Of a stretch of DNA of 36,121 bases, positions 8,387-19,790 are shown in pieces. The stretch spans positions 1-36,121 of the IMG/VR virus record IMGVR_UViG_3300042465_003543. One strand, given 5' to 3'. Source of the DNA: a virus. Every line of letters begins with the position of its first letter. The first letter of the stretch is position 1. Below the pieces are notes generated by a model that saw only the letters and a list, made by a program, of their open reading frames with translations, made no database searches and was not told the DNA's origin. The translations under genes were made by a program, and so were the position numbers.

Positions 8387-9151
8387 ATGACGCTCGTACT
8401 CAAGGCTGGAGCGATCATTGTTGAAGGTGGACTCCTCGGCGCAGGGCAAGACTGCTGCTGCGGTTCGTCCTCATCGAGTAGCAGTTCGTCCTCGTCGAGC
8501 AGTAGTTCGTCATCGTCCAGTGACTCGTCCTCGTCGAGCAGTAGTTCGTCATCGTCCAGTGACTCGTCCTCGTCGAGCAGTAGTTCGTCATCGTCTAGCA
8601 GTTCGTCCTCGTCATCGAGCAGCAGTTCGTCATCGTCAAGCAGTGACTCGTCCTCGTCCAGCGGCTCGTCCTCGTCCAGTGGCTCGTCCTCGTCCAGCAG
8701 TGGGAGCAGTTCCTCATCTGCATCCGTGGAATGCACTACCGACGGAGACTGCGGATGCGAGCCTGGATACACCTACTATCCAGAGGCGGCGGGGAGTGGA
8801 CACAGCGGATGCTGCCCGCCCGGATCGTACTATGAAACCGGGCATGGCTGCTGGAATGGCGAGCCCGGAACAGAAACGGCGGCTGGCGAGAGTCGATTCT
8901 GCTGCTGCGGCAAATGCGGGCCAGCGTATCTCCCGCAGCCTGCGTCTGACGGCTCGACTCCGTGCCGAAAGTGCTCGATCTGTAAAGGCGAAGGACACGC
9001 TGGCGGGCCTTACGGAGACTTCATTTCGATGCTTGACGCATACGGCGCGCTCGGGGTTTCGACGCCACTGTCTGAAGTCCTGTGTGAAGACGGATTTTAT
9101 TTTGAGACGTGCGAGTTTGAGTTTGACCCAGACAATCCCAACAACTGCTAG
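8387..9151 (+). CDS. Polyserine-tract, cysteine-rich tail-region protein
   Basis: The 254-residue protein has three parts. Residues 1-26 end in a Cys triplet ('DCCCG'). Residues about 27-112 are almost pure serine, interrupted by single Asp or Gly. Residues about 113-254 carry many Cys in short clusters ('CTTDGDCGCEPGY', 'GCCPPGSYY', 'FCCCGKCG', 'CRKCSICKGEG'), suggesting disulfides or metal binding. The polyserine part is encoded by mixed TCG/TCC/TCA/AGC/AGT codons, so the protein sequence and not just a simple DNA repeat is maintained, although exact 39 bp units are present. It lies after the tail-tip genes and before two glycosyltransferase-like genes. I infer an extended, possibly glycosylated, surface-exposed linker plus a compact tip domain; this is not established. 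Confidence 0.75.
   Translation: MTLVLKAGAIIVEGGLLGAGQDCCCGSSSSSSSSSSSSSSSSSSSDSSSSSSSSSSSSDSSSSSSSSSSSSSSSSSSSSSSSSSSSDSSSSSGSSSSSGSSSSSSGSSSSSASVECTTDGDCGCEPGYTYYPEAAGSGHSGCCPPGSYYETGHGCWNGEPGTETAAGESRFCCCGKCGPAYLPQPASDGSTPCRKCSICKGEGHAGGPYGDFISMLDAYGALGVSTPLSEVLCEDGFYFETCEFEFDPDNPNNC
8486..8595 (+). repeat. 39 bp tandem repeat within the polyserine tract
   Basis: Bases 8486-8524 and 8525-8563 are identical 39 bp units, and 8564-8595 match the first 32 bases of a third. Each full unit is in frame and encodes 12 Ser plus one Asp. Such an in-frame repeat can expand or contract by slippage or recombination without a frameshift. Confidence 0.9.
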
Positions 9152-9570: not shown

Positions 9571-10319
9571 GCGACACGCATACCGGGCGAGCCGTTGATC
9601 GAAGGAGCCGCTTCTGCGGGTTTGCTGCGTTTGCCGCCTTTTATCACATCGCCGCGATGGGCAACTGGCAAGAGGTTGTCCTAGAGCAAAAGAGCATCAC
9701 TGACGCCGTGGGGCTGCGACCTCAATGCTTGCTGCTCGGCAGCGACGATGACGCGGCGTGGGCTCGCCAGCAAGGCCTCGACGTTCGATGGGTGCTGAGC
9801 GACTTGGGGCAATACGAAACTCCAACGCTTGAGAGGCTGCACGAGTGGTGCCTCAACAACAGGGACGGTGCTGTGTTGTATTTCCACACCAAAGGTGTGA
9901 GCAATCCGCAGCACGCTGGCAAGCGGTTCTGGCGATGGATGATGATGGAGCACGTCGTTGCGAGATGGGGATACAACCTCAGGCGGCTTGAGTTGGTTGA
10001 TCTGGTCGGCGTGTGCTGGCAAGACTCGCCGTGGATGCCGCATTTCAGCGGAAACTTCTGGATGGCTCGTGCAGATTGGGTGTCCGTTTTGCGGCATCCG
10101 CGAGCACACCGCGACACGGGAGGGCCGAGTGTGTGCGGCAATCCGTGGGAGCGAATGCACGCCGAACTATGGATCGGTTCTGAGCCGTGGCATTCTGTGG
10201 ATTCACTGGTATGCCGGAACGAAATCATCTGGGAGGCGGACTCGCCGTTCTATCGACCTTACGACGGCTTGACGTTTGACGAGGTTGCGAGACTCATGAC
10301 CTCACAGGTTCGGCCATGA
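9567..10319 (+). CDS. Glycosyltransferase-like protein
   Basis: The product of about 250 residues starts at GTG 9567, overlapping the previous TGA; an in-frame start 45 bases upstream lies inside the previous gene and is less likely. The signature is 'GAVLYFHTKGVSNP', then 'LVDLVGVCWQDSPWMPHFSGNFWMARADW', cited here as 'DLVGVCW' and 'PHFSGNFWMARADW'. This pattern belongs to a family of glycosyltransferase-like proteins found in phage and capsule loci, with 'FHTKG' and 'FSGNFWWA' cores. No transmembrane segment is visible, so it is cytoplasmic. It is immediately followed by a GT25-type gene and preceded by the polyserine protein. Confidence 0.65.
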   Translation: MSDTHTGRAVDRRSRFCGFAAFAAFYHIAAMGNWQEVVLEQKSITDAVGLRPQCLLLGSDDDAAWARQQGLDVRWVLSDLGQYETPTLERLHEWCLNNRDGAVLYFHTKGVSNPQHAGKRFWRWMMMEHVVARWGYNLRRLELVDLVGVCWQDSPWMPHFSGNFWMARADWVSVLRHPRAHRDTGGPSVCGNPWERMHAELWIGSEPWHSVDSLVCRNEIIWEADSPFYRPYDGLTFDEVARLMTSQVRP

Positions 10320-11635
10320 TGCAGTTGTTTGACCGAGTGGTTGTGATTTCCCTGCGGCGGCGAGCCGACCGGATGCGACGCCTGTCGGCAAGGATCGCCG
10401 AGTGCGGCTGGCCGTTCGCGGAGCCGCAGACATTCGATGCCGTAGACGGCAACGCGGTCCCGTGTCCCGGTCAGTGGAGGTCTGGTGGCGGTGCCTACGG
10501 TTGCCAGCAGTCTCACATACGGGTTCTCCAGAACGCCCTGATGGACGGCGTGGAGCGGATGCTCGTCATGGAGGACGATGCGGAGTTTAGGAACACATTC
10601 GCCGCAGACGCTGCGGCGTTTCTTGAGAACGTGCCAGACGATTGGGAATGCCTCATGCTCGGCGGGCAGCACATCGCCCCGGCCACGCCTGTGTGTGATG
10701 GTGTTGTCCGATGCAAAAACACGCAGAGGACTCACTGCTACGCGGTCACTCGCGAAGGCATGAGGACGCTGGCGAAACTCTGGTCAGAAAGCGTAAACCA
10801 CATCGACTGGGATATGGGTCCATGCCTCGGGATGCGGGGGAAAACTTACGCACCAGCGACGTTCCTCGTCGGTCAGGCCTCGTCGCAGAGCGACATCAAC
10901 GGCAGGAAGAATCCGACGCAGTTCTGGACGCCGCCTCGCGAGTCCTTGCCGCTCCTGTGGTTGCAGGCTCCGCGTGAAGTTGCGGAGCAGATGCGGGAGT
11001 ACGGATGCCACTACGGGGCCGACCTCGACAAGAAAGGCAACGACGTTGGACTCAATCGCGCCTTTCCCTCGCCGGGGCGATACGTCGGCGGCATCCAGAA
11101 GTTCATTGGACACGTCACATGGGAGTGCGAGTCGTTTGTTGAGAAGTTGGGGATAGCCACCATCTGGCATCCCAACGCGACCGACGCCTGTGCCGAAGCG
11201 TTGCTGGCTGACTGCTCTCCCAACGTAATCAAAGCGGACACGTTTGAGCAGGCAGCGGCGATGGCCTCGACGCTGTTCCCCGAACTGTTTACGCGCCGGG
11301 CGACCACCACGAAGCCGCCAATCCTGCTGATGAAAACTTCTCGGCAGATTGTTGAGTCGCTGCGAGGCATGAGGCTGATCCACACAGGACACTGGCGAAA
11401 CGAAGAAACAGGCGTGGACAACGGGCTGGCTGCGATCATTGGCGAAGGCAGAGCGTGCCTCCGCGAGTGGCATTCGGTGATGGAGCGGGAAGCAAACTGG
11501 ATGAACTCTGTCGTGGCTGTGTGGCATCCAGCGGCGACTAGAGAACTTGCTGCCACGGCAGGCAGGCGGGTTGTGGTTATAGAGGCCGACAGCATTGACG
11601 AAGCACGGAAACAGGTAGAAGCCGCAACGCTGTAG
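10316..11635 (+). CDS. Glycosyltransferase family 25-like protein with duplicated C-terminal module
   Basis: Residues 1-200 match GT25 (LPS-type beta-1,4-galactosyltransferase) proteins: 'VVVISLRRRADRMRRL' at the N-terminus, 'AYGCQQSHIRVLQNAL', the metal-binding 'MLVMEDDAEF', and 'THCYAVTREGMRTL'. These features place a nucleotide-sugar transferase in the cytoplasm. The protein is longer than a plain GT25 (439 residues). The extra C-terminal ~220 residues contain two related stretches, 'ATIWHPNATDACAEAL' with 'IKADTFEQAAAMA' and 'VAVWHPAATRELAAT' with 'IEADSIDEARKQV', so this part is an internal duplication of unknown function. It overlaps the upstream transferase by ATGA. The acceptor could be phage protein, phage DNA or host surface glycan. 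Confidence 0.8.
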   Translation: MMQLFDRVVVISLRRRADRMRRLSARIAECGWPFAEPQTFDAVDGNAVPCPGQWRSGGGAYGCQQSHIRVLQNALMDGVERMLVMEDDAEFRNTFAADAAAFLENVPDDWECLMLGGQHIAPATPVCDGVVRCKNTQRTHCYAVTREGMRTLAKLWSESVNHIDWDMGPCLGMRGKTYAPATFLVGQASSQSDINGRKNPTQFWTPPRESLPLLWLQAPREVAEQMREYGCHYGADLDKKGNDVGLNRAFPSPGRYVGGIQKFIGHVTWECESFVEKLGIATIWHPNATDACAEALLADCSPNVIKADTFEQAAAMASTLFPELFTRRATTTKPPILLMKTSRQIVESLRGMRLIHTGHWRNEETGVDNGLAAIIGEGRACLREWHSVMEREANWMNSVVAVWHPAATRELAATAGRRVVVIEADSIDEARKQVEAATL

Positions 11636-14549: not shown

Positions 14550-14603
14550 AAAAAAATATTCTGTAACCCCTATTGCGTTTTTCTGCCGATACCTTAAAAT
14601 GCA
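14550..14603 (+). promoter_or_regulatory. Repeated phage promoter, copy P1
   Basis: An A-rich UP-like block (AAAAAAATATT) is followed by CCCCTATTGCG, TTGCGT at 14573-14578 as -35, a 16-base spacer containing TTCTGCCGAT, and TAAAAT at 14595-14600 as -10. The same ~54 bp block recurs at 17731 and 19691, each time before a gene start, which strongly supports a promoter used by host sigma-70-type polymerase. Confidence 0.8.
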
Positions 14604-14648
14604 CCGGTCGCAGCAAACGAGCCGCGAAACACCAACGGAGAAAAAGCC

Positions 14649-15201: not shown

Positions 15202-15582
15202 ATGACCTACAAGAACGCGATGGTATTTGTTTACGGCACACTGCGGAGCGATGCTGACCCGTCCAACTCCCACCTACTCGGCGGGACGCTGCTCAGCACA
15301 TGCTGCACGGTTCGCGGTGAACTTTACGACTTCGGCCACTACCCCGGCATCGTGCTGAACGAGTTCGGCGGCGACGTGGTTGGCGAAGTGTGGTCGGTTC
15401 CCAAGACCAGCCTGAGCAGGCTCGACTACTACGAAGGCTCGCTGTACGTCCGCGTGATCACGGAGGCACGGCTGGCAGGCGGCGAAAAGATTCACGTCAT
15501 GGTGTACGAGGCCATCGACGTGGATGGGCTGGACAAGATCCCCGGCAACGATTGGGTCACTCGCAAAGTGGCAGCAGGCTGA
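15202..15582 (+). CDS. Gamma-glutamylcyclotransferase-like (AIG2/GGCT) protein
   Basis: The 126-residue protein carries the GGCT signature 'VFVYGTLRSD' (Y11-G12-T13-L14-R15) that binds the gamma-glutamyl group, 'GELYDFGHYPGIVL', 'VVGEVWSV' and 'LDYYEG' (around residues 73-78) with the acidic residue expected at the active site. Family enzymes cleave gamma-glutamyl amides to 5-oxoproline plus the free amine; BtrG in butirosin synthesis is a known example of removing a gamma-glutamyl protecting group. Here it lies ~2.5 kb upstream of an amidoligase and a glutamine amidotransferase, suggesting removal or editing of gamma-glutamyl conjugates. The leader at 15173-15191 sets the start. Confidence 0.85.
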   Translation: MTYKNAMVFVYGTLRSDADPSNSHLLGGTLLSTCCTVRGELYDFGHYPGIVLNEFGGDVVGEVWSVPKTSLSRLDYYEGSLYVRVITEARLAGGEKIHVMVYEAIDVDGLDKIPGNDWVTRKVAAG

Positions 15583-15610
15583 TTCACCAACACCAACGGA
15601 GGACACGACG

Positions 15611-15817
15611 ATGACGATTCAACTGGAAGTGACGAAGCGTGAACTGGACTTCCTTCTGCGTGGAATGTCTGCCTTGCTGATTGACGAGAACGAGCGCAGC
15701 ACCAGAAGGAACGGCGAGTACAAGCCAACGAAAAACTACCTTGCTGCTGAAGAACTGGAGTTGCGACTGATCAAAGCCGCATCCGCCGCAGCGAGGCAGG
15801 AGTCGCAAGTGCAGTGA
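15611..15817 (+). CDS. Small hypothetical protein, 68 aa
   Basis: ATG 15611 follows the leader CACCAACACCAACGGAGG (15585-15602). The 68-residue product is one long helical pattern ('VTKRELDFLLRGMSALL', 'YLAAEELELRLIKAASAAA') and could be a helical hairpin. Similar 'k.el..l..gl..l..' proteins are common in phages but have no assigned role. It belongs to the P1 unit. Confidence 0.6.
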   Translation: MTIQLEVTKRELDFLLRGMSALLIDENERSTRRNGEYKPTKNYLAAEELELRLIKAASAAARQESQVQ

Positions 15818-15867
15818 TTGCGAAGTGACAGCGGACTGATTCACAACCCCAAAACGGAGACACGACG

Positions 15868-15894
15868 ATGACCAACAGGAGGGACCAAGCATGA
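15868..15894 (+). CDS. Eight-codon leader peptide overlapping the next gene
   Basis: The frame ATG ACC AAC AGG AGG GAC CAA GCA TGA encodes MTNRRDQA. It has the standard CGGAGACACGACG leader of this region, and its stop overlaps the ATG at 15891 as ATGA. The codons AGG AGG GAC also serve as the Shine-Dalgarno of the next gene, so reading the mini-frame would pass ribosomes directly over that site. It may be a coupling device or the remnant of a gene start. Confidence 0.45.
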   Translation: MTNRRDQA

Positions 15895-16208
15895 AACCGC
15901 AGCAACTAATGGCGACCGGCCAGTGGAACCGCAGCGGAGTGTGGCCGCACTACCAAGGCGAAGGGCCGAAGTACCAGCACAGGACGCTTGACGTTCAACT
16001 GCAAGGCTTCGCCACGCAACGGAACTCGCGACGAAAAAGGGGCGTCACGAAGATGCGGATGTGGGTGCTGCTGGTGAACGGCAAGCCAGTGTCGCGTGAC
16101 TCGCGATTTGCCCTGCTCGCCGATCAAGCCGCAGTGATTGCCACGAACTCCGCGACCGGTTGCACCAGCGCGACGGTCATAACAGCACTGCAACGACAGG
16201 AGGACTGA
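15891..16208 (+). CDS. Small hypothetical protein, 105 aa
   Basis: The start at 15891 has AGGAGGG nine to fifteen bases upstream and overlaps the leader mini-frame. The protein is basic, with the N-terminal part rich in Gln/Trp ('ATGQWNRSGVWPHYQGEG') and a central strand 'RMWVLLVNGKPVSRD' followed by a helix 'ALLADQAAVIATNS'. No family is recognised. Confidence 0.6.
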   Translation: MKPQQLMATGQWNRSGVWPHYQGEGPKYQHRTLDVQLQGFATQRNSRRKRGVTKMRMWVLLVNGKPVSRDSRFALLADQAAVIATNSATGCTSATVITALQRQED

Positions 16209-16210
16209 AC

Positions 16211-16624
16211 ATGAAAATGGACATCGACATCTCGGACGATCTGCAGGAACTGCGGGAGCGAGTTGAAGTGATGGCAGTCTCGCGTGAGGACGCCGCCATC
16301 ATCACCCGTGCTGCACTGGAAATCGCACGGCTGCGTGGGAAAGAACCAGTAACCAAAGAGGAGCGAGTGATGTGGACTACATTCGGAACCGCTGCACCGC
16401 AGCGGGTGGAGTTTGTAAAGGACAGCAGGCCGGGGATGGCAATCATCAAGTACCGAGGTTGCCAGCCGTCAGTTCCGAAAGACACGCTGTTCGCAACAGA
16501 GTCAGAGTCGTGGCTGGCGTTGTGCGCAAAAGCCGCAGCCGACATGGAACTGCTTCACAAGCGTCTTGACTACTTGCATCGTGAGTACGACAAGGCAAAG
16601 AAGCGAGAGGAGGCACAGTCATGA
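16211..16624 (+). CDS. Hypothetical helical protein, 137 aa
   Basis: The ATG at 16211 follows CAGGAGG; an upstream in-frame ATG at 16160 lies inside the previous gene and is rejected. The N-terminus is an acidic helical stretch ('ISDDLQELRERVEVMA') and the C-terminus a charged coiled coil ('LLHKRLDYLHREYDKAKKREE'). Between them is a short beta-rich unit around 'PGMAIIKYRGCQP'. ATGA overlap with the next gene suggests coupling. Function unknown. Confidence 0.6.
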   Translation: MKMDIDISDDLQELRERVEVMAVSREDAAIITRAALEIARLRGKEPVTKEERVMWTTFGTAAPQRVEFVKDSRPGMAIIKYRGCQPSVPKDTLFATESESWLALCAKAAADMELLHKRLDYLHREYDKAKKREEAQS

Positions 16625-16830
16625 GCAACACCACGCTCTACATGATCTCGTATCACGACGAGGACACACCAAGCGGAGTCACGCGAGAGTGGTTCACGAC
16701 GTTCAACAAGGCGATGCGAAGGCTGCGGCAACTCAAGTTGAGTGACAGCGAGCGGGTCTACATTCGCGAAGTGCCGCGAACGAAGGTCGGGCTGGCCGAA
16801 TGGCTCAATACACACGCAAAGGTAGGGTGA
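16621..16830 (+). CDS. Small hypothetical protein, 69 aa
   Basis: The 69-residue product has a strand-helix-strand pattern: 'LYMISYHDED', then the helix 'FNKAMRRLRQLKLS' and the strand 'RVYIREVPRTK'. It starts with an ATGA overlap with the previous gene. This ferredoxin-like or dsRBD-like order is typical of small phage accessory proteins, but no family can be assigned. Confidence 0.55.
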   Translation: MSNTTLYMISYHDEDTPSGVTREWFTTFNKAMRRLRQLKLSDSERVYIREVPRTKVGLAEWLNTHAKVG

Positions 16831-16833
16831 ACC

Positions 16834-16959
16834 ATGAGCGAGCAAGGAGACTGCCGCAAACTCAAGCGTGACCGATACCACAAGTGGCTACGCAGGCGAT
16901 GGGAGCAGCGAGCCAAGAACGCCGAAGCAAAGCGATCAACCAAACAGGAGGCCAAGTGA
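16834..16959 (+). CDS. Very small basic protein, 41 aa
   Basis: The frame from ATG 16834 to TGA 16959 encodes a strongly basic peptide with Trp, Arg and Lys ('HKWLRRRWEQRAKNAEAKR'). It fills the gap between two genes with minimal spacing: three bases after the upstream stop, and its TGA overlaps the ATG of the next gene. The charge suggests nucleic-acid or ribosome binding, an inference only. Confidence 0.55.
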   Translation: MSEQGDCRKLKRDRYHKWLRRRWEQRAKNAEAKRSTKQEAK

Positions 16960-17459
16960 TGCAGACATTCCTTCCGTATCCGTCGTTCCGCGAGTCGGCA
17001 CGATGCCTCGACACGAAGCGGCTTGGAAAGCAGCGAGTCGAGTGCAAGCAAATCCTCGTCGCACTCGGTGCAGATGTCGGAGATCATCGCGGCAACCTGA
17101 TGTCTCGTTGGCGAAACCATCCGGCAGTAAAGATGTGGCGAGGCCACGAGCACTCGCTCGCGGAATACGCCGAGGTCATGTGCATCGTCTGGAAGCAACG
17201 TGGCTTCAAGGACACGCTGAGAGACCAGTTCAGCGAGACGTCACTAAGAATCTACGCATACGCCGAGTTGGCAAAAAAGAAATGGGGATCAAAGTGGAAC
17301 CCCGCGTCTGCGCCGAAGTGGCTCGGATGCGAGCGGCTCCACGCATCGCATCGCAGCAATCTGCTCCGCAAGGATGCAACTCACTACGGACAGTTCGGAT
17401 GGAGCGAGACTGCGGATCTTCCGTACTGGTGGCCGACTCAACAGGAGACAGCAGCATGA
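16959..17459 (+). CDS. MSMEG_6728-like protein / pyrimidine-dimer DNA glycosylase-like
   Basis: The N-terminus 'MQTFLPYPSFRESARCLDTKRLGKQRVE' (cited as 'MQTFLPYPSF' and 'RCLDTKRLGKQRVE') followed by 'WRNHPAVKMWRGHEHSLAEY' matches the MSMEG_6728 family, annotated in places as pyrimidine dimer DNA glycosylase/endonuclease V-like. The pattern 'RLGKQR.E..QIL' near the N-terminus and 'NHPAV.MW.g.e' are the conserved parts. The predicted role is repair of UV-damaged DNA. I recognise the pattern from memory; the enzymatic activity of this family is less certain than for T4 DenV. The start overlaps the previous TGA (TGATG). Confidence 0.75.
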   Translation: MQTFLPYPSFRESARCLDTKRLGKQRVECKQILVALGADVGDHRGNLMSRWRNHPAVKMWRGHEHSLAEYAEVMCIVWKQRGFKDTLRDQFSETSLRIYAYAELAKKKWGSKWNPASAPKWLGCERLHASHRSNLLRKDATHYGQFGWSETADLPYWWPTQQETAA

Positions 17460-17701
17460 TCCGTGATGTGCTTCGCACTGCGTGCGCGATCACCGTGATG
17501 GCTGTCGCGTGTTCACTGATCATTGAGACGCGGTTCCATCTCGCAGCAATCGAAACAGCGCAGCGTCAAGCGGTGATGCCATTGGCAGGCTTGCCGACTG
17601 TGCAGCCGCAGCCTCCCCCGGCGAGGGAGCCGGGAAGGCTGCGGTCTTTTGGGCGGGCTGTGCTTGATCTGGCCGACGCGGGGCTGGCGGTGCTTCGGTA
17701 A
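17456..17701 (+). CDS. Small membrane protein, 81 aa
   Basis: The 81-residue protein starts at ATG 17456 (ATGA overlap with the previous gene) after ACAGGAGACA. Residues 5-23 ('VLRTACAITVMAVACSLII') form a clear N-terminal membrane helix, followed by a Pro-rich linker ('VQPQPPPAREPG') and an amphipathic helix with 'LDLADAGLAVL'. It could be a spanin-like, holin-like or exclusion protein, but no lysis gene lies beside it, so no role is assigned. It is the last gene before promoter P2. Confidence 0.6.
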   Translation: MIRDVLRTACAITVMAVACSLIIETRFHLAAIETAQRQAVMPLAGLPTVQPQPPPAREPGRLRSFGRAVLDLADAGLAVLR

Positions 17702-17730
17702 AAACCGTGAAAACCACGGGAAATATCCAG

Positions 17731-17784
17731 AAAAAAATATTTTGTAGACCCTATTGCGTTTTTCTGCCGATACCTTAAAATGCA
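17731..17784 (+). promoter_or_regulatory. Repeated phage promoter, copy P2
   Basis: The block is nearly identical to P1: A-rich UP-like tract, TTGCGT at 17754-17759, a 16-base spacer with the same TTCTGCCGATACC, and TAAAAT at 17776-17781. The transcript leader carries the small hairpin CGCGT-GGAAA-ACGCG (17790-17804), also found after P3. It drives the amidoligase gene. Confidence 0.8.
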
Positions 17785-17833
17785 AGGGTCGCGTGGAAAA
17801 CGCGGTGACTGCCTCAAAACGGAGACAACAACA

Positions 17834-18667
17834 ATGAACGCTTCGGAAATCACCTTCGGCATCGAAATCGAAACCACCATGCCAGCCGGTTCGGTCCAGA
17901 CGGGCCATCACGGCGAAGGCATCCAAGTCCCTTGGCTACCGGCCGGTTGGCTGGCCGACGATGACCCGTCGATCCGCCCGCGTTCCGGCCGCATCGGCTG
18001 TGAGTTCGTCTCGCCCATCCTTCAAGGAGCCGAGGGGCTGCGTCAGTTGGTCGCGGTGGTCGCCGAAATCAAGCGTCGCGGCGGCTCGGTGAACGATTCC
18101 TGCGGCATCCACGTCCACGTTGGCTTCAACCGTCATGACACCGCTGCACTGGAGCGGCTTGTGTCACTGGTCGCCAACCACGAGAAGGCCATCTACGCCG
18201 TGACGGGGACCAAGAACCGTGAGCGTGGCGTCGGTAGCCGTTACGGGACGTGCTGGTGTCGGTCGGTCAAGCAGTACGGCAACGCTCGCACTGCACTGAC
18301 CCACCCGAGCGGACCGAGCCACTATCGCTACAACGTGGTCAACCTGACCAGCGAAAACCCGACCGCTGAGTTCCGTGCTTTCAGCGGCTCGCTCAACATC
18401 ACCAAGGTGATTGGCTACGTTCGCATCTGCGTCGGCATCGCACAGAAGGCCATCAAGTCCAAGCGGACTGCTCCCTTCGTCAGCACTCGCGACCGGTTTC
18501 GCACTGCCACCAACGAAGGCCAGTGCGAAGTCAACCGGATGCTGTTCAACCTGAAGTGGAGTTCGCGTCAGGCGTTCGGCGTGATCGAGTGTCCCGGTGT
18601 CCCGACCGTCAATGCCTGCAAGAAGATGATGCGTGAGATGGCAAAGCGATACGACCGTCAGCCGTAG
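17834..18667 (+). CDS. Amidoligase (Amidoligase_2, glutamine-synthetase-like ligase)
   Basis: The 277-residue protein has the amidoligase signature: 'TFGIEIETT' (E11, E13, metal and ATP binding), 'PSIRPRSGRIGCEFVSPIL' (the 'g.E.vSpil' motif around residue 55), and 'CGIHVHVGF' (around residues 91-99), with 'YRYNVVNL' and 'TAEFRAFSGSLN' further on. The family (PF12224) is an ATP-dependent carboxylate-amine ligase of the glutamine synthetase fold. Comparative genomics links it to gamma-glutamyl or peptide-like modifications, often with a glutamine amidotransferase and a GGCT-like protein, as here. The CGGAGACA leader sets ATG 17834; a start 54 bases upstream would begin before the promoter's transcribed leader. 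A perfect hairpin follows at 18677. Confidence 0.88.
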   Translation: MNASEITFGIEIETTMPAGSVQTGHHGEGIQVPWLPAGWLADDDPSIRPRSGRIGCEFVSPILQGAEGLRQLVAVVAEIKRRGGSVNDSCGIHVHVGFNRHDTAALERLVSLVANHEKAIYAVTGTKNRERGVGSRYGTCWCRSVKQYGNARTALTHPSGPSHYRYNVVNLTSENPTAEFRAFSGSLNITKVIGYVRICVGIAQKAIKSKRTAPFVSTRDRFRTATNEGQCEVNRMLFNLKWSSRQAFGVIECPGVPTVNACKKMMREMAKRYDRQP

Positions 18668-18676
18668 TGCTGGCTC

Positions 18677-18703
18677 CCCTCCGTAGCACGTTGCTACGGA
18701 GGG
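18677..18703 (+). terminator. Perfect hairpin after the amidoligase gene
   Basis: CCCTCCGTAGCA (18677-18688) pairs exactly with TGCTACGGAGGG (18692-18703) around a CGT loop. It begins ten bases after the stop and has no clear T-tract, so it may terminate, attenuate or protect the mRNA between the amidoligase and amidotransferase genes. The apex GCACGTTGC is shared with the hairpin at 20862. Confidence 0.65.
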
Positions 18704-18741
18704 TCGGATTCAAACGGAACAACCAAAACGGAGACAGAATC

Positions 18742-19374
18742 ATGTGCGGAATCTTTGGGTTCGTTGCGAAGAAGAACACGCGGGTCAACCTTTCGGTCCT
18801 ACGGGCAATCGCCACCATCACGGAGCGGCGTGGCCCTCACGCTTGGGGGATTGCTTGGGTGGACGGGGCTGGCAAGACCCGCACCTACAAGCAGCCGGGA
18901 GCCATCACCGACTCGCTGGCACTGCTGGCGATGGCGAAGGATGCACGGCTGCTGATCGGTCACTGCCGATGGGCCACTCACGGCGACCCAGAGAACAACA
19001 CGAACAACCACCCGCACGACGGCGGCGACTCGTGGATCGTTCACAACGGCGTGATCAGCCACTACGAGGCGATCGCGGAGCGGCACAGCCTCGACTTGCT
19101 GACCGACTGCGACTCGGAAGTGCTGGGAGCCATGATCCGCGACTTCCCCGGCAAGCCGATGGCAAGGGCGAAGCGAGCCTGCACCGAAGCGATGGGAGAC
19201 AATCCGTTCGCGATGATGGCACTGTGGCCCGACCGACTGATCGCAGCACGGGCAAACAACCAGCCGCTCCACGTTGGCGAGACGAAGGATTCGTTCTACC
19301 TCGCGTCACTTGCCTACGGGCTCCCGGGGACCGTCCGTCCGATCGCCAACGGCGAGATCGTTGAGTACGCTTGA
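18742..19374 (+). CDS. Class II glutamine amidotransferase (GATase type 2, Ntn-hydrolase)
   Basis: The protein begins 'MCGIFGFVAKK', so after Met removal Cys2 becomes the N-terminal nucleophile, the hallmark of GlmS/PurF-type glutaminases. Other family motifs are 'IGHCRWATHGDPENN' (Arg/Trp/Thr/His/Gly that bind glutamine), 'NNHPHDGG', 'IVHNGVISHYE' (Asn/Gly of the oxyanion site) and 'LLTDCDSEVLGAMI' (Asp-Ser-Glu). At 210 residues it is a stand-alone glutaminase domain with no synthase partner domain. It hydrolyses glutamine to glutamate and ammonia, and by context probably feeds ammonia to, or acts with, the amidoligase upstream. The CGGAGACA leader sets the start at 18742. Confidence 0.9.
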   Translation: MCGIFGFVAKKNTRVNLSVLRAIATITERRGPHAWGIAWVDGAGKTRTYKQPGAITDSLALLAMAKDARLLIGHCRWATHGDPENNTNNHPHDGGDSWIVHNGVISHYEAIAERHSLDLLTDCDSEVLGAMIRDFPGKPMARAKRACTEAMGDNPFAMMALWPDRLIAARANNQPLHVGETKDSFYLASLAYGLPGTVRPIANGEIVEYA

Positions 19375-19381
19375 CCACCGC

Positions 19382-19422
19382 TCCATCCTGTCGCGTGGCA
19401 CTCCGTCACGCGACAGGATGGA
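19382..19422 (+). terminator. Perfect 16 bp hairpin after the amidotransferase gene
   Basis: The 16-base arms 19382-19397 and 19407-19422 (TCCATCCTGTCGCGTG and its complement) pair without mismatch around a 9-base loop, starting eight bases after the stop. No T-run follows, so strict intrinsic termination is uncertain. A GAGGCGACG RBS region and the next gene follow closely, so some read-through is expected. Confidence 0.7.
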
Positions 19423-19447
19423 ACACCATACAGAAGGCGAGGCGACG

Positions 19448-19669
19448 ATGGCTGGCGATACGATCAATGTTTGGCACTGCCCGAAATGCGGAAAGGAACT
19501 CCGCTCAGTTGGAACGGTCAAGTGCGACGGTGAGTCGATGCCTGTTTTCCAGTGTCCGGTTTGCGTGGTTCGGCAGGACGTGTTCGGGGAGCCGTTCGAC
19601 GTGGCACTTACGTTCGCGGTGAACGCGGCTGGCAAGCCGGTCGATCCGGGCGATGACCGAGTTCTGTAA
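19448..19669 (+). CDS. Small zinc-ribbon protein, 73 aa
   Basis: The 73-residue protein has two CPxC knuckles, 'WHCPKCGKELRSVG' and 'FQCPVCVVRQDVFG', about 25 residues apart, forming a standard zinc ribbon. Its C-terminus is acidic and Val/Ala-rich ('LTFAVNAAGKPVDPGDD'). It is expressed after the amidotransferase and may be an adaptor in nucleic-acid or protein interaction. The start at 19448 is chosen because the upstream in-frame ATGs fall inside the amidotransferase gene or hairpin. Confidence 0.65.
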   Translation: MAGDTINVWHCPKCGKELRSVGTVKCDGESMPVFQCPVCVVRQDVFGEPFDVALTFAVNAAGKPVDPGDDRVL

Positions 19670-19690: not shown

Positions 19691-19744
19691 AAAAAAATAT
19701 TTTGTAACCCCTATTGCGTTCTTCTGCCGATTGTGTAAAATGCG
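19691..19744 (+). promoter_or_regulatory. Repeated phage promoter, copy P3
   Basis: The third copy has AAAAAAATATTTTG, CCCCTATTGCG, TTGCGT at 19714-19719, a 16-base spacer and TAAAAT at 19736-19741. The spacer keeps TTCTGCCGAT but then reads TGTG, giving an extended -10. The transcript leader carries CGCGT-GGGAA-ACGCG (19750-19764), matching the P2 leader hairpin. Confidence 0.8.
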
Positions 19745-19790
19745 GGGGTCGCGTGGGAAACGCGGCAAAACACCAACGGAGACAAGAACC

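Follow-up and report, generated by a model that had tools for sequence, protein, structure and literature searches.

The window, that is, the whole stretch of 36,121 nucleotides of viral DNA that was analysed, carries three enzyme genes on its plus strand. The first (15202..15582) encodes a gamma-glutamyl(amine) cyclotransferase-like protein of 126 residues, the GGCT, that belongs to PF06094 (E 4.3e-22, 79 bits; Pfam cut-off 22.8) and PHROG 2520. The second (17834..18667) encodes an amidoligase of 277 residues, PF12224 and PHROG 2443, with a predicted glutamine synthetase/carboxylate-amine ligase fold; the comparison with PF12224 (Amidoligase_2) that an earlier note on this DNA had proposed gave a score of 71.9 bits (E 9.6e-20), above the Pfam gathering score of 22. 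The third (18742..19374) encodes a stand-alone class II glutamine amidotransferase (glutaminase) domain of the GlmS type, the GATase, which has 210 residues with an N-terminal Cys2 and exceeds the Pfam cut-off for PF13522 (GATase_6; E 8.6e-13, 49 bits). The open reading frames and the Pfam scores confirmed both the positions and the identities that the earlier note had given to these genes.

The same note had reported that all three proteins keep their signature residues, and the alignments bore this out: catalytic positions were invariant or nearly so among homologues and no loss of catalytic residues was seen. In the amidoligase, Glu11, Glu13, His93, Glu179 and Arg181, which make up the ExE, His and ExR active site, were found in 100% of 151-161 homologues. 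Similarly, Cys2, Arg76, Asn102, Gly103 and Asp124 of the GATase were present in 100% of 81-82 homologues, so that the N-terminal cysteine nucleophile, the Asn-Gly of the oxyanion hole and the arginine and aspartate for glutamine are all in place. The GGCT retains the YGxL motif (Tyr11, Gly12, Leu14) and the catalytic Glu78, and Gly12, Pro48, Asp75, Glu78, Tyr82 and Arg84 were conserved in 100% of 13 homologues; an alignment of eight GGCT sequences was too diverse for the scan and a closer set of four was used instead. The ratios of dN/dS against G001, the closest relative with all three genes, were 0.28 for the GGCT, 0.25 for the amidoligase and 0.11 for the GATase, and the G001 GGCT, located upstream of its amidoligase, was 74% identical.

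Profile searches of the PDB matched the GGCT to YtfP (1xhs) and to GGACT (3jub), and the GATase to the glutaminase domain of GlmS (1xff/4amv, E about 4e-17). The C-terminal sugar isomerase domains of GlmS are absent from the GATase, where the open reading frame ends at 210 residues, and the NCBIfam glmS model scored 88 bits against a cut-off of 418, with only the glutaminase part aligned. A sequence search of the PDB gave no match for the amidoligase. However, the AF2 model (pLDDT 82) retrieved YbdK (1r8g/1tt4), glutamine synthetase (4lnn), GshF (3ln7) and PafA (4bjr) with Foldseek, all at E<1e-3. No fusion of the amidoligase with the GATase or the GGCT was found in a Rosetta-stone search (amidoligase-GATase fusions, 0 among 220 and 113 open reading frames), and long amidoligases had no recognised extra domain apart from a marginal LIM match.

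The three genes are not contiguous. Several small open reading frames and a Pyr_excise gene separate the GGCT from the amidoligase, and the GGCT, 2.2 kb upstream, is in a different transcription unit. A promoter-like direct repeat of 75 bp (17731..17805, + strand; TTGCGT-16-TAAAAT with an upstream A/T tract) lies directly before the amidoligase, while a copy with 83% identity (14550..14624, +) heads the upstream unit, to which the GGCT belongs. A third copy, 87% identical, is found at 19691..19765 (+), so the copies at 17731 and 19691 bracket the amidoligase, the GATase and the zinc-ribbon gene described below. Comparable elements occur directly before the G001 amidoligase (TTGACG-TATCAT) and in L322 (TTGACG-TATAAT); a generic sigma-70 promoter scan gave the repeats no score. 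An upstream in-frame ATG at 17780 lies within the -10 box of the repeat and is a poorer candidate for the amidoligase start than 17834, which is preceded by a ribosome-binding site (GGAG).

The GATase gene is followed by a small gene (19448..19669, +) for a CPxC...CPVC zinc-ribbon-like protein with weak rubredoxin/zinc-ribbon matches. Homologues with 50-70% identity (tblastn) adjoin the GATase in L002, L016, L018, L097 and L098; in several close relatives the gene is found close to the GATase, in either orientation. The protein is possibly an accessory of the amidoligase-GATase unit. A search for a small conserved neighbour that might serve as a peptide substrate found only this zinc ribbon tracking the GATase in close relatives, and none across the wider set. 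The Pyr_excise/MSMEG_6728-type gene (16959-17459) was considered as a cassette member and rejected, because it is commoner in relatives that lack the amidoligase (21/27 vs 1/7) and because only three of 80 Pyr_excise loci had an amidoligase. PADLOC anti-phage defence models gave no match.

No relative of the window at the DNA level was present in the phage collection searched. The amidoligase and the GATase were found in exactly the same eight of 34 related phage records (Fisher 5.5e-8, uncorrected for kinship), and an amidoligase was present within the fetched flank at 69 of 80 GATase-anchored loci, the GATase being downstream of the amidoligase in most relatives. Together these observations strongly support a functional unit of amidoligase and GATase. 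Around 25 GGCT-anchored phage loci, an amidoligase was nearby at 17 and both partners at 15, as compared with an amidoligase at only three of 80 loci around the control gene, Pyr_excise. Thus, the co-occurrence of the three genes that the earlier note had suggested examining in related phages is far beyond chance. Relatives exist without any of the three, and the trio is therefore removable cargo.

The position of the GGCT is less firm. One possibility is that the amidoligase and the GATase are one system, and that the GGCT is an accessory without relation to it that lies close by only by chance; the separate promoter-like repeats and the intervening genes favour such an arrangement, as does the presence of the GGCT in only two of the eight amidoligase-bearing lineage records and none of the 26 others (p 0.05). 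We nevertheless consider it unlikely, because the enrichment over the control gene is large and because the order GGCT, amidoligase, GATase is kept in G001 and in L020/L021. Across 50 amidoligase-GATase phages, ten had a GGCT; GGCTs of different subfamilies stand beside amidoligases (L004), and PF06094 proteins are not confined to phages, being present in the ordinary cells that served as controls. Since few relatives have a GGCT and the gene sits in the upstream transcription unit, it is the looser partner of the pair. The linked trio of the earlier note consequently holds strongly for the amidoligase and GATase and, across phages, for the linkage of the GGCT, while an obligate part for the GGCT in this phage, in a lineage where three of nine amidoligase-bearing phages (the window included) have one, is weakly supported.

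The combination has been described before. The gene set of phiEco32/LUZ24/RIO-1-like phages was named a "peptidoglycan modification cassette" in PSA-HP1 (PMC5498523), the same enzymes are encoded by ORFs 21-29 of UFV-P2 (PMC3890496), and MW202615 carries them as well. As in these podoviruses, the window has a PF12224 amidoligase, a class II GATase directly or closely after it and a PF06094 GGCT in one early region. It differs in the length of the GATase, 210 residues vs about 390-570, and in the lack of the second ligase of the full cassette, PF14395 (COOH-NH2 ligase), for which none of the 50 window open reading frames gave a Pfam match. PF14395 was likewise found in 0 of 31 records of the broader group of the window (G001 and 30 more), as compared with 11 of 16 other records above the cut-off. 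A scan of the window for an ATP-grasp protein gave none; such proteins of phages, however, have weak scores even where the cassette is well known, and the record could be incomplete. Phages of Arthrobacter cluster AL (Salgado genes 97-99; PMC5513430) have a compact GGCT, amidoligase and GATase in the same order and no PF14395; unlike the window, the genes are contiguous, the identity is about 30% and the host is an actinobacterium. Firmicutes prophages (TPDSL_ph1, PMC11253131; C. clostridioforme, PMC11318856) also have a GGCT close to an amidoligase, but there are two amidoligases and the passages that describe them mention no GATase alongside. OM43 phages (PMC10580990) share the PF12224-PF13522 pair, with no mention of a GGCT. 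The locus is thus a compact member of a known phage amide-ligation cassette, without PF14395 and with no ATP-grasp found. The precedent in comparative genomics to which the earlier note pointed is correct: this gene set is reported from phages in papers that cite Iyer et al. 2009 (PMC5498523, PMC3890496, PMC5513430, PMC11253131). The enzyme identities, active sites and linkage given in that note are supported, but its combination of writer, ammonia source and eraser had been published as a phage cassette and is not new. The literature search found no experiment on any cassette member, and the papers repeat the peptidoglycan target as a hypothesis.

The reading that we favour, with a probability of roughly one in two, is a glutamine-dependent amide synthetase composed of the amidoligase and the GATase, with an optional GGCT eraser, that probably acts on envelope peptides. 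The N-terminal cysteine of the glutaminase would release ammonia from glutamine, and the adjacent amidoligase, which has a predicted glutamine synthetase fold, would activate a carboxylate with ATP and amidate it with that ammonia; we infer that the two proteins are coupled as the subunits of an amidotransferase. Where present, the GGCT-like enzyme could remove gamma-glutamyl groups as 5-oxoproline and so trim or clear gamma-glutamyl amides. As target, a carboxylate on a peptide of the host envelope (the peptidoglycan stem peptide) is most likely; both this target and the purpose, an altered cell surface during infection, for instance against competing phages, are taken from the published hypothesis. 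The host of this uncultured phage is probably a member of the Planctomycetota.

Alternatively, the pair may amidate a carboxylate of a phage or host protein, or add an amine or peptide to it, with the GGCT removing gamma-glutamyl marks. GGACT-type relatives of the GGCT (3jub) act on gamma-glutamyl-lysine, and PafA and Dop, which act on proteins, are among the structural neighbours of the amidoligase model. However, the model fits YbdK, whose substrates are small molecules, better than these, and among relatives the pair is not accompanied by any conserved gene for a peptide or tag, making this alternative improbable. A contribution to nitrogen and amino acid metabolism, in which glutamine and gamma-glutamyl compounds are scavenged for the infected cell, was proposed for the planctomycete-associated Phage-ZRK32, which has a GATase, amidoligase, GGCT and glutathione synthase and reportedly promotes growth on nitrate and ammonium (PMC10945688). 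The tests described in that report were of the whole phage, not of the genes; moreover, ammonia release needs no ATP-consuming ligase and the cassette occurs in phages of very different hosts, so we hold this explanation to be more doubtful still. Decoration of phage DNA by the pair is very improbable: a distant GATase relative in L157 carries a fused amino acid:DNA transferase domain (PF18724), but the fetched flank of L157 lacks an amidoligase, and neither a hydroxymethylase or thymidylate synthase homologue nor a base kinase or pyrophosphorylase turned up in the scan of the window, leaving the modified base suggested by the earlier note unsupported.

Returning to the amide synthetase, phage amidoligase cassettes are widespread, and if the target is peptidoglycan, chemical modification of the envelope by phages would be common to very different hosts. 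One ligase and one 210-residue glutaminase represent the simplest form of the cassette to purify and assay. The existence of amidoligases without a GATase shows that the latter is not universally needed. We tentatively suggest, as an unlikely extension, that the compact pair works by itself as a glutamine-dependent synthetase on a peptide or protein of the planctomycete envelope, while its prophage relatives, in a single event, lost the glutaminase and switched the amine donor through a His-to-Thr replacement in the CGxHxH motif, giving two clades with different amide modifications in the same host group. The approximately 40 prophage-type amidoligases without a GATase, from planctomycete chromosomes and related viral contigs, form one nested clade that lost the GATase and in which a histidine of the catalytic motif is a threonine, a natural comparison for the contribution of the glutaminase.

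Profile searches placed three open reading frames where the earlier note had put them, with families on which Pfam and the PHROGs agree. The 36,121-base IMG/VR virus record encodes a gamma-glutamyl cyclotransferase-like protein (GGCT, 15202-15582; PF06094; PHROG 2520, gamma-glutamyl cyclotransferase), an amidoligase (17834-18667; PF12224; PHROG 2443, amidoligase) and a class II glutamine amidotransferase domain (GATase, 18742-19374; PF13522; PHROG 14519, glutamine amidotransferase), all above the Pfam cut-offs. In profile comparisons, the GATase matched the glutaminase domain of GlmS (1xff, 4amv), where the match ended, with no GlmS isomerase domains, and the GGCT matched the YtfP and GGACT structures. 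No PDB relative of the amidoligase was found by sequence. Its AlphaFold2 model (pLDDT 82, pTM 0.85) matched YbdK, glutamine synthetase, bifunctional glutathione synthetase and PafA (E < 1e-3) and thus has a predicted carboxylate-amine ligase fold; the TM-scores, about 0.4-0.6, support the modelled fold, not any specific reaction. The catalytic positions of all three enzymes are intact and were invariant across homologues, and dN/dS of the three genes relative to G001, the closest relative bearing the trio, was 0.11-0.28.

The proposed linkage of the three genes proved real by four sets of counts, drawn from viral records that may be fragments and with p-values that ignore the kinship of the phages. 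An amidoligase was present in the fetched flank of 69 of 80 viral loci retrieved with the GATase profile only, usually immediately upstream. Within 10 kb of the GGCT in 25 GGCT-anchored viral loci, 17 had an amidoligase and 15 both partners, versus 3/80 (amidoligase), 3/80 (GATase) and 1/80 (GGCT) for loci anchored on the common Pyr_excise gene as control (Fisher p about 6e-11, or about 5e-9 with near-copies merged); the sole GGCT in the control adjoins an amidoligase-GATase pair. The phage's SNF2-type helicase served as anchor for 34 whole records of its lineage: PF12224 and PF13522 occurred in the identical eight (p 5.5e-8), and PF06094 in two of these versus none of the other 26 (p 0.05). 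PF06094 was found in 10/50 GATase-bearing records and 1/32 GATase-less prophage-type records. In that one (L004), the GATase-less amidoligase is immediately followed by a GGCT of another subfamily (10789-11424), the two activities apparently having been paired independently. Confidence in the enzyme identities and linkage is high.

The amidoligase, the GATase and a zinc ribbon form a unit (17834-19669) bracketed by copies of a 75-bp promoter-like repeat at 17731 and 19691, and a third copy at 14550 heads the upstream unit with the GGCT. The copies are direct repeats, each just 5' of a gene start. Related elements stand directly in front of the amidoligase in G001 (TTGACG...TATCAT) and occur in the relative L322 (TTGACG-TATAAT), suggesting an early promoter reused to build accessory units. 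Gene order is kept in G001 (GGCT, two small genes, amidoligase, GATase). L322 lacks all three genes, and its neighbouring DUF932 gene is 97% identical to that of the window, so the trio is removable cargo; the slot often carries Pyr_excise instead. A Pyr_excise/MSMEG_6728-family gene, also present in the window (16959-17459), is common in the lineage and found mainly in members lacking the amidoligase-GATase pair, as though it were alternative cargo. Leaders of the type CACCAACACCAAMGGAG recur before many start codons between 14628 and 20480 (e.g. 14847, 15181, 20248) and constitute a recurring ribosome-binding context.

By established enzymology, a class II glutaminase beside a ligase of the glutamine synthetase fold points to glutamine-dependent amidation. 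GGCT-like enzymes remove gamma-glutamyl groups by cyclisation, which yields 5-oxoproline. The GATase would thus hand ammonia to the amidoligase, a coupling held with fairly high confidence, while the optional GGCT could, by virtue of this cyclisation, trim gamma-glutamyl amides; that it is a functional partner in this phage is held with moderate confidence.

The precedent named in the earlier note for such gene sets is correct: papers citing Iyer et al. 2009 report the same genes in phages. UFV-P2 ORFs 21-29 encode PF14395, PF12224, GATase, ATP-grasp and AIG2 (PMC3890496); RIO-1-like phages have a "Peptidoglycan Modification Cassette" said to be common to phiEco32, LUZ24, PaP3 and others (PMC5498523); and the genes are described in Arthrobacter AL phages (PMC5513430), OM43 phages (PMC10580990) and Phage-ZRK32 (PMC10945688), with amidoligase and GGCT in prophages (PMC11253131; PMC11318856). 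The Arthrobacter Salgado record contains them as well. The window locus is therefore one more case of a published gene set. No enzyme assay on cassette members was found in the portions of this literature available. What sets the locus apart is its compactness: the GATase is a glutaminase only, the window lacks PF14395, the second ligase of full-form cassettes, and no ATP-grasp was recognised among its ORFs. PF14395 was found in 0/31 records of the broader group and, above cut-off, in 11 of 16 other records.

The published hypothesis that the target would be peptidoglycan stem peptides is reasonable, because cassette carriers infect very different hosts; judged on its own evidence, an envelope or peptidoglycan target falls short of even odds. 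At locus L157 (8482-10380), a distant class II GATase carries a fused amino acid:DNA transferase domain (PF18724), which points to DNA modification as one use of this glutaminase domain. Near the tail genes, a serine-rich tandem repeat (8444-8720) lies within ORF 8387-9151, and a glycosyltransferase family 25 gene (10316-11635) adjoining the tail region could decorate the virion or host surface.

Genome matches of the amidoligase were mostly in Planctomycetota (Pirellula, Rhodopirellula, Stieleria and relatives), with a few in Bacillota, Bacteroidota and Omnitrophota, and this sequence distribution is suggestive, though not proof, of a planctomycete host for the window phage. In a quick tree of 135 amidoligases, with some long branches, Thr or Ser replaced the second His of the catalytic CGxHxH motif in 43, a single group (support 99) nested among GATase-bearing amidoligases. 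A GATase was nearby in 84 and absent in 8 of the His-type enzymes, versus 2 and 41 of the Thr/Ser type; in L184, one of the two exceptions, a second, His-type amidoligase adjoins the GATase. The correlation reflects a single evolutionary event and so counts as no more than a lead. About 40 prophage-type amidoligases (many of L028-L089, and L173-L193), many in planctomycete chromosomes, have Thr for the second His and no GATase; this clade has a conserved 112-aa acidic ORF downstream and, on the opposite strand at a distance of about 2.6 kb, a TerL-like ORF.
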